A stretch of DNA of 25,175 bases, taken from positions 1 to 25,175 of the IMG/VR virus record IMGVR_UViG_3300046665_000774; one strand, given 5' to 3'. Every line of letters starts with the position of its first letter. Position 1 is the first letter of the stretch. Shown here piece by piece: positions 14,120 through 19,051 of the stretch. This stretch comes from a virus. The notes under the pieces are model-generated. The model ran no database searches. It was not told the DNA's origin and was given only the letters and a program-made list of their open reading frames with translations. A program made the translations under genes and the position numbers.

Positions 14120-14655
14120 CCCGGCACCCAGTAGCGGTCTAGCTTTTTGCACAGGTACTGCGCGTTCGGGTTCGGGAAATAATCGTTCTCGATCATGCCG
14201 AGGATGTAGCCCTTGATCGCGGCAGGAACCGACGTCTCGTCCGGGCCATATCCGCACACGTATTGCACCTCAACGGCATTGATGCGCGCGGCCGTCGAGG
14301 GCCAGGCACGCCCCGGTGCCGGCACCACGTACCCCGGCTCACTCTTGGCGTCGACCATGTAGTCCTGTGGATCCAGCGTCTGCAGGGCGCCCGCCGGATC
14401 GTAAAACTTGACGTGCACGACGCTGACGATGGGCGGGTGAGGCAGACGAATCGCATCCGGGAACGCATCGAGAGTTACCTCCCACGTCTGCAAAATGAGC
14501 GCGCGGTGTGTTTCGTGCTCGGCCTCTTCCGTGTAGTCCTGCACCTTCTGTTGAAGCTCGGCATCGAGCGCGGTACCACTCGTGCGCGCAGACGCGCGCG
14601 CGGCAGCCATCGACACCGCCAGCGCAGCCGGCGGCACGATCAGTTGGTCAGTCAT
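14116..14655 (-). CDS. Head-tail connector protein, phiE125 gp8 family
   Basis: A 179-residue head completion protein of the phiE125 gp8 / gp6-like connector type. The N-terminal half is helical (LQQKVQDYTEEAEHETHRALI). Then comes the family-typical strand region TWEVTLDAFPDAIRLPHPPIVSVVHVKFYD, and a YxCGYGPDETSVPAAIKGYILGMI segment near residues 132-155. It forms a ring under the portal and begins the neck. The start at 14655 overlaps the previous stop by four bases (ATGA), and its own stop overlaps the next gene likewise. The family assignment is from recognised pattern and position, not from a search. Confidence 0.9.
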   Translation of the reverse strand: MTDQLIVPPAALAVSMAAARASARTSGTALDAELQQKVQDYTEEAEHETHRALILQTWEVTLDAFPDAIRLPHPPIVSVVHVKFYDPAGALQTLDPQDYMVDAKSEPGYVVPAPGRAWPSTAARINAVEVQYVCGYGPDETSVPAAIKGYILGMIENDYFPNPNAQYLCKKLDRYWVPG

Positions 14656-16184
14656 CGGTGATTCCTTTGCAATTCGGCCGGTCGAGACATATTGCTCTCG
14701 GCAGGTCGGCTTTCGTTGTAATGCTGTTGCGGGATATAGCCTCTGCCGACCGGGGCTCGCGCGTATGTCACTTGTGCGCTGTAGCGCAGCTGCGCGTCGG
14801 CGCCGGACAGGCCGAACGTGCCAACCTGCGTAAGAACGCAGCGCGCGGCGCGCATTATGACGCTGCCGCTGGCCACTGCAAACATGCCTGTAGATGTCGA
14901 CATTCGACGACCGACCAGCACCGGCGCGGCAGCGCCCGACCATGCAAAAGGGCACGACGCGGCGCCAAGCCGTCGGCGCGCGAGCACATTAGCCGCACCG
15001 GCCGTCAAAGCGAATGCTCCAGCGACCGCCATCAGCGTATAGGTCGGCCCGCCCGAACCTTGCGCCGGCGTGTATGTCATCTGAACGGCGCCCGGTGACA
15101 GAGCGAATGCACCTGACTGCAACGTCAAACGGCGCACGGTGATCATCGGTACCGCGGCGCCCAACAGCCCGAACGTGCCGACGTTCGCCGCCAACTTGCG
15201 AGCCGCAAGGATCGGAGCCGACGAACCATTCATCGCGAAAGCGCCGGCACCGGCCGTCAGTCGACGCCACGCAACCAGATTCGCGGGTGACCAACTTGAT
15301 GTCAGCGCACCAGCTGCCGCAACCAAGCGGCGAGCCGCCGACAGCGCCACTTGGGAAGCCGACATCTGGAAGGTGCCCACAGCGGCCTGGAGCACGTATG
15401 CGGCGAATGCTGTAGGCGACATCCACATACGTCGACGTCGAGCCGCGAACAGCTGCCACGGGTTGTCCGCCAGCGCCTGCATCTCCGAATCGGCCAGCGT
15501 GCGCCGCCAAACTACGACGAGCATCAGTGCACCGGTGCCCCATTGCTGGGCATTGGTGGCACGCGCACCGACGCAAATTGGTATCCCAATCCCTGGCGTC
15601 TTCATGGAAGACGGAGCGCCGACAGTGATAACCCCGTTCTGGAAGCAAGCGGTACGGGTTGGGCTTGCAGTCGCCCCCATGGTGAAGCCGCGAGACATCT
15701 CTGCTACCGTCAATGCTACCGGTGATGTGACCTGACCGGTCAGGGCGGTCATCGAGGCATTGAACGGGAGGAATTCAACCTTGCCCGCGTTCAGCCTGAA
15801 TTGCCAATAACGCTCCGAACTGTTGTCCATGTCGAGTGCGCTCTGGGTGGCACTCGTGGACGTGCACGTTCCGAAGGCGAAAAGACTGTAGTTCGGAGAA
15901 TCGATGGCGCCTTTCGCGGCCAACGTGTACATCGGGGTCGTCCCTATCGGGCGCCCGCCAGTTCCCTGCACCGTATTGGCTTGAACGCCGGCTGTGTAGA
16001 CAACATTATTTTGGGTAACGGGAAAACCAGATCCGTCAGTAGCTGACACAAACCCATACGCCTGATCCGCATGCATCAGGCATACCGTCATGTCTCGCGT
16101 GAGCGGGTTGGACCAGTCGATCGCCAACGCCTCGCCAGGCTGCGGCTGCGTCCTCCGTACAAGCCTGGATACGAGCGCGCCCAT
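14652..16184 (-). CDS. LamG-like lectin-domain protein with nine 22-residue repeats
   Basis: A 510-residue protein. The start is the ATG at 16184, which overlaps the previous stop; 103 further codons open upstream lie inside the neighbouring gene. Residues about 15-247 look like a concanavalin A/LamG-type sandwich, ending in the familiar DSEMQALADNPWQLF. From residue 270 a motif GxFx[LM], then about 12 residues, then RR[LM], recurs. Repeats start at 270, 292, 314, 336, 358, 389, 411, 433 and 455, an exact 22-residue period apart from one 9-residue insertion. The basic tail (480-510) is unstructured. Lectin-like folds often bind glycans, so a virion surface fibre or decoration is likely. The gene overlaps the connector by four bases. 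Confidence 0.85.
   Translation of the reverse strand: MGALVSRLVRRTQPQPGEALAIDWSNPLTRDMTVCLMHADQAYGFVSATDGSGFPVTQNNVVYTAGVQANTVQGTGGRPIGTTPMYTLAAKGAIDSPNYSLFAFGTCTSTSATQSALDMDNSSERYWQFRLNAGKVEFLPFNASMTALTGQVTSPVALTVAEMSRGFTMGATASPTRTACFQNGVITVGAPSSMKTPGIGIPICVGARATNAQQWGTGALMLVVVWRRTLADSEMQALADNPWQLFAARRRRMWMSPTAFAAYVLQAAVGTFQMSASQVALSAARRLVAAAGALTSSWSPANLVAWRRLTAGAGAFAMNGSSAPILAARKLAANVGTFGLLGAAVPMITVRRLTLQSGAFALSPGAVQMTYTPAQGSGGPTYTLMAVAGAFALTAGAANVLARRRLGAASCPFAWSGAAAPVLVGRRMSTSTGMFAVASGSVIMRAARCVLTQVGTFGLSGADAQLRYSAQVTYARAPVGRGYIPQQHYNESRPAESNMSRPAELQRNHR
14757..15377 (-). repeat. Nine tandem 66-base units encoding 22-residue repeats
   Basis: The repeats lie in the 3' third of the LamG-protein gene. 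They are diverged at DNA level but keep period and motif at protein level, with GTF, GAF or GMF openings and RR near position 16. The fifth unit is lengthened by 27 bases. The pattern suggests an old tandem expansion under protein-level selection. Confidence 0.8.
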
Positions 16185-16657
16185 CAGGTGTACTGCGCCG
16201 CTGCGCCCATGGCTTTGAGCACCGCGCCGGTCGCTATCGTCTGGCCCGAGCGATTCAAGATGTACACGTTGTACAGCGTCGGAAACAGGTCGACCGGCAG
16301 CGAGGAGAACAGTGCATTCGTGCTTGCCGTCGGTACCTTGGACGCGACAAACGAGCCCGCGCGCATCGTGTACGGGATGTACGAAGCGCCGGCCGTGAGG
16401 TCCACGTCGGGCGAACTCGCGCCGTCGATGACCGGCACGAGGTACAGGTCGGCGATGGTAGTGCCGGCGGCGATGCCGGTGATCGTTGCCCACTGCGCGG
16501 TGAGTGAGAACAGCGCGATGAACAAGTCTGCGAGGGCGCCCCCGGCGCGCGCGTCGAGCTGGCCGACGAGCACAGCGGAGCCTGTAGCGAACGCCGCCCC
16601 GGTCGTGCCGATTGTCACCAGTGATGCTGCTTCTTTCGAGAGGATGTTCCCGGCCAT
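16184..16657 (-). CDS. Hypothetical virion protein, 157 aa
   Basis: A 157-residue, Ala/Gly/Thr-rich protein beginning MAGNILSKEAASLVTIGTTG. The pattern of short hydrophobic strands separated by turns, with a conserved-looking middle (DLYLVPVIDGAS, ASYIPYTMRAGSFVA) and end (YNVYILNRSGQTIATGAV), suggests a beta-rich structural protein. The ATG overlaps the previous stop (TAATG), and its own stop overlaps the start of the LamG-repeat protein by one base, so the three are likely translated as a coupled set. The family is unnamed as far as I can tell. A role as base or partner for the following lectin-like protein would fit the gene order but is inference only. Confidence 0.8.
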   Translation of the reverse strand: MAGNILSKEAASLVTIGTTGAAFATGSAVLVGQLDARAGGALADLFIALFSLTAQWATITGIAAGTTIADLYLVPVIDGASSPDVDLTAGASYIPYTMRAGSFVASKVPTASTNALFSSLPVDLFPTLYNVYILNRSGQTIATGAVLKAMGAAAQYT

Positions 16658-17115
16658 TATTCGTTACTCCATGCGTCTACGATGTCACGCGCGGTCGGCG
16701 CGGAGATGCCGAGAACGTCGGCACGGCTGGCCGGCACCTGCGCCAGTTCATACAGGTCGGCGACCTCCGCTTCGGTCGCGATACCGCAGGCGACCCAACC
16801 GGCAAGCATCGCTTCCAGGCGCGGGTCCTCAAGGTGGATCGGATCGCCGCACGCGAACGAATCGCGAATGACCAGGCACGATGCGCGGCACGGGCTGTTC
16901 ACGTCGTTGCTGGCGTCCACGATGCGGGCATACGGACCGGCAGCGGCCCACGCCTTCGCGGTGGTCGAGCGCAACGGGCCAGTCGTCGTCGTCACTAGCT
17001 CCGTGAGCAAGTCGACGACGCGCACCGGATCGTCCGGCAGGTGCGCAGCGTAGCCGCGACCTTCCGGATCCTGCGTCAGTTCAGCGCGCAGGATTGCTTG
17101 CTGTGCAGGCGTCAT
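16657..17115 (-). CDS. Hypothetical phage protein, 152 aa
   Basis: A 152-residue protein starting MTPAQQAILRAELTQDP, an opening shared by a set of phage proteins found near head genes. The opening forms a helix, residues 35-75 form an Ala/Thr-rich middle (LLTELVTTTTGPL), and a helical C-terminus ends with RADVLGISAPTARDIVDAW. Four cysteines lie between about residues 80 and 110. It follows the preceding gene by two bases and overlaps the next by one (TAATG). No enzymatic motif is visible. I regard it as a virion or assembly accessory of the capsid-to-connector insert; the function is unknown. Confidence 0.8.
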   Translation of the reverse strand: MTPAQQAILRAELTQDPEGRGYAAHLPDDPVRVVDLLTELVTTTTGPLRSTTAKAWAAAGPYARIVDASNDVNSPCRASCLVIRDSFACGDPIHLEDPRLEAMLAGWVACGIATEAEVADLYELAQVPASRADVLGISAPTARDIVDAWSNE

Positions 17116-17117
17116 GA

Positions 17118-17531
17118 TCAGGTCAAGGTAAAAGCGCCGGCCGCCTGATCGAGATCGATCAGGATGCTTTCACCGTCGTTCAGTGTGATCGACGAGCCGT
17201 AATCGTAGAATCCGATCAGGTCGCCGTTTGCGGCGGTCGCGTTCGCCAGTACGGCGTAGCGGAACGGCCCAACCGCGCCGCCTGCTGCAGTCAGCGTCAG
17301 GTCGGCCAATACCTGCTTGTACACGCCACCGGACTGCGCAGCCGACGTCGTGGTCACGTTGCGCGACGAGCAGTTTGTATAGCTGATCTGCGCAATGTCG
17401 GCGGTGACAGCCGACCCAGCCGCCGTAGGCGCGGTGTTCGTCAGCAGGATTACCAGCTGGTCAGTCGCGAGGTTGTGCTTCTTCTTCGCGAGCGCCTCGA
17501 CGAACGCGTAGACTTTCTGGAATGCGGCCAT
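17118..17531 (-). CDS. Phage virion-associated protein of unknown function, 137 aa
   Basis: A 137-residue product with an AAAGG ribosome site. It begins with a helix ([18 protein letters not shown]), then alternates strands in a Thr/Ala/Gly-rich pattern: [61 protein letters not shown]. This pattern is familiar from small proteins encoded near phage capsid genes and suggests a beta-sandwich structural protein. I do not know of an assigned function. Decoration or head-surface protein is one possibility given the position after the capsid. No signal peptide or membrane segment. The next gene starts two bases after its stop. Confidence 0.85.
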
Positions 17532-17803: not shown

Positions 17804-19051
17804 TTACGACGCGCTGTTCTGGTAGTACTTGATCGCGCCGCCGATATCAACCAGGTTGGCGCCCATACGCGAGAACGCGACGAAGCCGACTTGGCCCTTG
17901 AGGGTGAAGGCGCTGTCGGTCATGCGGAACAGCGTGGTGTCCATCACGTCGCGGATCAGGTACTTCGAGAAGTCGCCAAACAGGATCGACTTGGCGTTCG
18001 CCGCCATGGTCGGCATGTGCTGGTTGATGACGATCTCTCGGCCGAGCAAACGGTCGGGCGCGCCACCCGGGTTGCCTTGCTCGTAACCGGGTACGAAGAT
18101 CGGACGGCCATTGCTGTCCTTCAGCTTGCGCAGGATGCGCAGCGTGTCGTCGTGCATCATCCAGCGGCCGGACGGACGATAGAACGGGTCGACGGAATGC
18201 TCCAAGTCGACCAGGTCGTCGTAGGTGACCGTGACGGTCTGACCGGTGCCGCCGACCTTGCCGGCCGCAGCAGCGGCCACGATGCCGCGCGGCTGGCCAG
18301 AGCCGGTGCCGACAGTGTGGTGGCGGTTGTGGATGCGGCCCTTGCGCAGCTGCAGCAGGTTCGAGATGTAGCCTTCCACGTTGAACATCGAGTCCTGCAG
18401 CAGCTCGAACGGCAGGGCGATCGACTTCGACGAATACTTGTAGACGTCGAGCGATGCTTGGCCGAAAGGCGTGTCCAGTCCGGTGACCGAAGCGTTCTGG
18501 CCGACGATCTCGCCTTCTTCTGCAGTCGAGTCGGCGGTCGGGAACAGCATCTGCGCACCGGTCGAGGTTTGGATACCAGTGGCGACGCTGCGAACCGCGT
18601 AGGCTGCCTTCATCGCCTGGATCAGGGTCTTGCTGAACTCGGTGGCGACGGTATACCCGCCCTCGGAGCCGGTGGTGGTCGACATCGCGGCGCGAATGTC
18701 CGGATTGACGCGGGCGTGCATCGCCGCGCGCTGCTCCGCACTCAGGGCGGAGAGGCCGCCGGTCAGCATCGCACGCAGCGCCGCGCCTTCATCGGTCTGG
18801 GCGCCGCCCGGGCGCGTCGCGGCCGCCAGCGCTGCGGCATGCTGCGCTTCCGGGCTTTCGCCGGCGAGCTGGGCCACGCGCTGCTCACGCGCGATCTCGG
18901 CGTCGACGGCCTCGACTTCGGCCAGGATGGTGTCCAGCTGGGCAGCCTCGGCGGCCGGCATGCGCTGGTCGGCCGGGTATTTGTTGTTCAGGTCGTGGGC
19001 CTTCTTGGCCGCGGCGTCGCGCTGGGCGCGCAGTTGTGCGAGCTTGCTCAT
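17804..19051 (-). CDS. Major capsid protein, HK97 fold
   Basis: A 415-residue capsid subunit of the HK97 family. Residues 1 to about 60 form a charged, alanine-rich coiled coil (delta or scaffolding domain). A linker runs to about 122, and the mature shell domain begins near MSTTTGSEGGYTV. Conserved family features are EGEIVGQN, the long E-loop region ending FGQASLDVYKYSSKSIALPFELLQDS, the A-domain stretch WMMHDDTLRILRKLKDSNGRP, and the final IKYYQNSAS. The delta domain is probably removed by the protease encoded upstream. An AAAGG ribosome site lies about 12 bases before the ATG. This is the most abundant virion protein, and its separation from the protease by a terminator may matter for dosage. 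Confidence 0.96.
   Translation of the reverse strand: MSKLAQLRAQRDAAAKKAHDLNNKYPADQRMPAAEAAQLDTILAEVEAVDAEIAREQRVAQLAGESPEAQHAAALAAATRPGGAQTDEGAALRAMLTGGLSALSAEQRAAMHARVNPDIRAAMSTTTGSEGGYTVATEFSKTLIQAMKAAYAVRSVATGIQTSTGAQMLFPTADSTAEEGEIVGQNASVTGLDTPFGQASLDVYKYSSKSIALPFELLQDSMFNVEGYISNLLQLRKGRIHNRHHTVGTGSGQPRGIVAAAAAGKVGGTGQTVTVTYDDLVDLEHSVDPFYRPSGRWMMHDDTLRILRKLKDSNGRPIFVPGYEQGNPGGAPDRLLGREIVINQHMPTMAANAKSILFGDFSKYLIRDVMDTTLFRMTDSAFTLKGQVGFVAFSRMGANLVDIGGAIKYYQNSAS

Follow-up and report, generated by a model that had tools for sequence, protein, structure and literature searches.

We analyzed 25,175 nucleotides of viral DNA (the window; IMG/VR record IMGVR_UViG_3300046665_000774, positions 1 to 25,175) and propose that an array of exactly spaced 22-residue repeats in one of its proteins, encoded by gene D, is a docking rope for bead subunits encoded by the nearby gene A, with a lectin-like tip and an anchor at the neck or tail end. 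We put the probability of this explanation at roughly 0.68. The main argument for it is that arrays change their period with the class of another small gene; this suggests a rope dependent on partner subunits.

Architecture of gene D

The open reading frame of gene D begins with an ATG at 16184 and its stop ends at 14652 (Table 1). The ATG overlaps the stop of gene C, and the stop is itself overlapped by the gene for a head-tail adaptor, which starts with MTDQL at 14655.

Table 1 Features of gene D and its cassette in the window
Feature	Coordinates	Strand	Length or residues	Remarks
Major head protein	17804-19051	-		Upstream of gene A
Gene A, proposed bead subunit	17118-17531	-	137 aa	Co-occurrence with GxF-22 arrays
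Gene B, cassette partner	16657-17115	-	152 aa	MTPxQ...DPxxRGYAxHLP
Gene C, small cassette protein	16184-16657	-	157 aa	MAGNIL...
Gene D	14652-16184	-	510 aa	LamG-like domain, 22-residue array and C-terminal cap
LamG/ConA-like jelly-roll domain of gene D	15447-16184	-	Residues 1-246	Ends NPWQLF; AF2, Foldseek
Nine 22-residue repeats	14757-15392	-	Residues 265-476	
Nine extra residues, QGSGGPTYT	15036-15062	-	Residues 375-383	Joins sub-arrays of 5 and 4 repeats
C-terminal cap	14652-14756	-	Residues 477-510	YARAP..YNESRP..QRNHR

A position-matrix scan placed the repeat openings at residues 270, 292, 314, 336, 358, 389, 411, 433 and 455, that is, at spacings of 22, 22, 22, 22, 31, 22, 22 and 22 (residues 270-476 correspond to 14757-15377). 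Self-similarity at lag 22 was 0.53, whereas 500 shuffles of the residue order gave at most 0.06 at any lag. Both results bear out an earlier, sequence-only reading of this DNA, which had described nine repeats at an exact 22-residue spacing with a single exception of nine additional residues. The GxF openings and RR pair of that reading held for most repeats: strict GxF opens seven of the nine (the other two open with GAL and CPF), and a basic pair, which may be RR or RK, follows the opening in six. We rejected the nine extra residues as an imperfect repeat since the ends of the sub-arrays show a link of 5 + 4, the first sub-array running from AYVL to VQMTYTP and the second from TYTL to QLRYSA. 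This link was present in all ten GxF-array proteins aligned, whereas whole 22-residue units were gained or lost among them.

The N-terminal part of gene D was modeled well by AF2 (monomer, 21 aligned sequences), with a pLDDT of about 90 over residues ~15-250, and in Foldseek searches of PDB and BFVD the model resembled concanavalin/LamG jelly rolls. The LamG domain that had been read from the sequence is therefore upheld by its fold, which is common to the LamG/ConA-like domains of phage adhesins (Laminin_G_3, PF13385); unlike those, the gene D protein had no significant match in a Pfam search, Laminin_G_3 included. Relatives of similar architecture (L041 and L105; L numbers denote loci of the comparison) match Laminin_G_3 below its cut-off. 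Clostridial neurotoxin binding domains and sialidases were rejected as identities for this domain, being generic jelly-roll Foldseek matches of 7-16% identity that are uninformative on toxicity. In the same AF2 model the array stayed below a pLDDT of 50; only towards its end did it show short, weak strand pairs, FxLxG followed by xxLxxxRR. Monomer structure prediction, which had been proposed as a check on the repeats, thus gave no confident solenoid, and a sequence search of the full protein against PDB returned nothing useful.

The lectin domain is 36-96% identical among viral contigs and a Massilia prophage, and the array types behind it are wholly different (GxF-22, TGVSA-22, and periods 20, 21 and 24). 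Between the window and L002, the lectin domain is 96% identical, the array 58% and the cap 29%; between L002 and L013, the corresponding values are 73%, 86% and 87%. Judging from such identities, the lectin domain, array and cap recombine as pieces. YARAP-type caps also stand behind period-20 arrays (L038, L066). In L002, L013 and L014, the YARAP cap is replaced by short repeats of ~10-11 residues (GSGSRVVPFE) or 9 residues (FAGGTKRVV). A domain of ~110 residues (KMTVDRDPDE...) forms its own next gene in L002 (5205-5540) and L013 (7521-7856); in L030, L031, L033 and L035 it is part of the array protein, as a fusion at its C-terminus. In L051 and L056, a second lectin-like domain follows the lectin part where others have the array.

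Gene neighborhood

On the minus strand, the gene order is head protein, genes A, B, C and D, head-tail adaptor, head closure, neck/tail completion and tail tube. This order, with the major head protein upstream and the head-tail adaptor downstream, fits the earlier assignment of gene D to the head region. A more specific placement at the head or neck had also been suggested, and is supported by the gene order together with a fusion found among relatives: in the myophage-like L020, the protein at the same position ends in a fused neck terminator domain (PF23961).

Gene B lies upstream in every relative examined with enough flanking sequence, and the order B-C-D recurs in contigs with siphophage-, myophage- and podophage-like neighbors (morphotype judged by gene content). 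Gene B is itself a mosaic, in which the N-terminal MTPxQ..DPxxRGYAxHLP and C-terminal PASRADVL segments are conserved and the middle parts are alternative among relatives. Family and PDB searches with gene C gave no match. The place of gene A is taken by Gp80 (PF23140) in L027 and in the Massilia prophage L066, the full order in L027 being Gp80, B, C, the lectin-array protein and the Gp77 fibre-tail adaptor (PF23148). In the window, the gene after D encodes the head-tail adaptor, and the genes scanned there included no Gp77.

The proposed bead protein

The gene A protein was modeled with a pLDDT of 88.9, and this model had no Foldseek match in PDB at E <= 0.001; a sequence search of PDB with the bead profile gave nothing useful either. 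It was not recognizable as Gp80: there was no Pfam match, BLASTP gave nothing for a bead homologue, and the hhalign probability was 5-7%. We also looked for a natural fusion of array and bead, which AF2 could have modeled as a single chain, and found none.

Weak bead relatives were observed upstream of arrays that differ in period or motif (L036:4584-5048, L041:4039-4500, L009 and L004:6696-7058), and these similarities suggest that one old bead superfamily may serve several rope classes. Such weak relatives (E of 1e-4 to 1e-14) are all that accompanies the period-24 arrays (L036, L041, L009/L023) and the TGVSA-type period-22 arrays (L004 and relatives), and our claim of a bead-loaded rope leaves these arrays out. 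A Sec-like hydrophobic leader, for example MKPFRILAGLVLAFSLPVQA-QSLTDFAENK, begins 17 of 44 Gp80-type open reading frames (L043, L045, L060, L063, L151-L153, L178 and others) and none of the 105 window-type bead frames; it is an odd feature for a virion part assembled in the cytoplasm.

The array period follows the class of the bead gene

If the array is a rope, its period is expected to depend on which class of gene A is present rather than on the lectin domain, and we tested this prediction. Searches of viral contigs with the gene D array and with a Manatee Spring array found no relatives because arrays drift too fast, which makes the bead the better handle. The records behind the lectin loci, together with two named phages, contained a window-type bead (family A3) at strong E-values in 12 cases: L047, L053, L057, eight near relatives, and MW202742, a Manatee Spring phage. 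All 12 carry a GxF/GxY array of period 22. In MW202742, several genes and ~3 kb separate the bead from the array, to which no lectin domain is attached. Both GxF loci that lack a bead (L029, L030) are cut off upstream. Lectin-set loci without a bead have no GxF array; L058 combines a GxF array with a weak bead match, and L036 a weak match (1.6e-4) with a period-24 array. Gp80 (PF23140), found in 11 records of the whole set, was accompanied by period 20 wherever an array was measurable and never by GxF. Some period-20 arrays (e.g., L014, L038, L059) have no detected Gp80, for which other bead classes or contig gaps must be allowed.

The association recurred when viral loci were fetched by their beads. 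Among 80 such loci, lag 22 was found in 48, lag 20 in one and lag 25 in one, and in most of the remainder the contig ends close to the bead; where at least 5 kb downstream and at least 3 kb upstream were available, a lag-22 or GxF array was present in 34 of 35. None of the 30 loci fetched by Gp80 showed lag 22 within 6.5 kb; 16 had lag 20 and one had lag 18, and several lacked an array despite full flanks. The resulting ratios of lag 22 to lag 20 (48:1 for the bead, 0:16 for Gp80) give p = 2.6e-14, a value that is indicative only: independence among the contigs is incomplete, and the bead profile was seeded in part from phages with arrays. After clustering of the beads at 90%, 26 bead loci remained with lag 22 and 12 Gp80 loci with lag 20, and neither side contained a locus with the other's lag. 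Lag-22 arrays also occur in three more Manatee Spring phages that are annotated and carry the bead, and the GxF array of another annotated phage, EBPR siphovirus 2, is irregular. In the isolated cyanophage Pam1 of Pseudanabaena, the bead adjoins a protein with a repeat-like N-terminus (gp9-gp10 neighborhood, L180:7866-9003); only two repeat-like segments, ~21 residues apart, could be read there by eye, and the pair is possibly a minimal rope.

Within the 48 bead-linked arrays, 376 of 451 spacings were exactly 22. The other near spacings were mostly 24 (16 cases), 26 (12) and 20 (11), as against 23 (6), 25 (6), 27 (3) and 21 (1), a preference for 20, 24 and 26 that is expected if strands must keep facing the same way. 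Arrays contain from two to about 79 repeats. The longest observed belongs to a 3,033-residue open reading frame, L093:11215-20313, that begins ~0.8 kb downstream of its bead gene. The array lies downstream of the bead in 41 loci and upstream in 7, mostly within ~2 kb.

Joint exchange of bead and array

A comparison of L025 with the Massilia prophage L066 separates the bead and array from the rest of the cassette. Their head proteins are 85% identical, B 69%, C 54%, the lectin domain 39% and the cap 66%, whereas their beads are unrelated and so are their arrays (period 22 vs 20). Since the exchanged bead and array flank ~1.7 kb of conserved interior, they appear to have changed together around it, and on these alignments linkage alone does not seem to explain the association between bead and period.

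A proposed bead-loaded rope and its alternatives

According to the explanation we prefer, each repeat would offer an extended, strand-forming segment clasped by a single gene A bead subunit, and the equal spacing of the repeats would line these subunits up into a regular, chain-like fibre. The array would be disordered until loaded with beads, which would explain its poor structure prediction. The lectin-like N-terminus would probably form a glycan-binding tip at one end of the fibre. The C-terminal end is the likely anchor at the head-tail junction, attached through the exchangeable cap either directly or by way of an adaptor, as the neck-terminator fusion and the exchange of caps suggest. 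We dropped a parity rule, under which dimeric beads would demand even repeat numbers, because sub-arrays of 5 + 4 and other odd totals occur.

The sequence-only reading had envisaged a solenoid or stacked-strand rod carrying the lectin. An elongated arm bearing a lectin-like domain is supported by our results, but a rod that stands by itself is not supported, given the low pLDDT of the array and a period that follows the bead class. In its full form, this alternative makes the array a self-contained shaft (a beta-solenoid or a homotrimeric rod of stacked strands) and the bead gene an unrelated neighbor. Phage fibres are often trimers, and the exact in-register repeats, their alternating hydrophobic residues and the weak strand pair that AF2 gives per repeat would all suit a shaft; nevertheless, we consider it unlikely, as it leaves both the tracking of the bead by the period and the joint replacement of bead and array unexplained.

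We hold it for a long shot that bead and array are co-inherited neighbors that never touch, with the array serving as an entropic spacer and the bead as some other head or fibre protein. Such an arrangement would agree with the short distance between most pairs and with the relatedness of the contigs, but the bead-period association survives clustering of the beads, gene order varies, the swapped pieces of L025 and L066 lie on either side of a conserved interior, and the distant pair of MW202742 has no lectin on its array. It is very improbable that the array serves directly as a surface for receptor binding or decoration, with repeats varied for specificity. Repeat number does differ among relatives and arrays are swapped as modules, yet conservation is strongest in the period and the anchor positions, and no hypervariable face was seen.

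Implications for other phage adhesins

Structure prediction fails on the repetitive stretches in which many phage adhesins end, a situation that the 2026 paper on phage LSH1 calls unexplained (PMC13243795). We lean slightly towards the broader view that exact-period adhesin arrays (20, 22, perhaps 24 and others) constitute a class of docking ropes, each with its own bead family, in which repeat number sets the length and modules are exchanged across tail types. If true, tips, beads, ropes and anchors would swap as modules among phages of different tail types. A rule leading from period to partner gene would give unfoldable stretches a function, name the missing partner and allow fibre length to be predicted from repeat number.

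Comparison with known fibre systems

Fibre I of the Ralstonia podophage GP4 was reportedly described by Zheng and colleagues in 2023 as a set of gp80 dimers that a long rope protein connects. PDB entry 8JOU has 10 chains with the Gp80 sequence, and searching PDB by sequence, including with an array profile from Burkholderia phage BcepIL02, did not find the rope. BcepIL02 encodes Gp80, then a protein of ~20-residue repeats annotated as virion-associated, and then the Gp77 fibre-tail adaptor, so that a bead-position gene, an exact-period array and an adaptor (Gp80 PF23140 and Gp77 PF23148 in GP4) likewise occur there and in L027. As in GP4-type systems, the window encodes an exact-period repeat protein near a small bead-position gene. 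Unlike in GP4 fibre I, its bead is not Gp80, its period is 22 rather than 20, its array is fused to a lectin domain, and genes B and C lie between bead and array. As gene A is not Gp80 by sequence, profile or fold, we liken it to GP4 and do not place it inside that family: it would work like the GP4 system without being a member, and the transfer from GP4 to the window draws on position and co-variation.

In Alishewanella phage LSH1, gp34-36 are virion proteins, namely an adhesin with an unpredictable C-terminal part, which its authors left unexplained, a fibril protein matching 8JOU_g, and an Ig-fold protein (PMC13243795). The payload of that adhesin is a beta-helix lyase-like domain, whereas that of the window is LamG-like. 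Slicko01, a phage related to LSH1, encodes a large protein with a period-20 array, which fits as a candidate for the stretch that could not be modeled. In JC1 virions, both neighbors of the array protein were detected, and the array protein, gp54, is absent from the list (PMC9144972), which counts against our explanation. The Anabaena myophage A-1(L) has bead-chain neck fibres with a carbohydrate-binding end piece, encoded by gp82-gp81-gp80 (PMC10966104). Its beads are trimers modeled without a rope, and no repeat rope protein is described, whereas the window has an array; in both, however, the fibre is, or in the window is proposed to be, a chain of repeated bead subunits.
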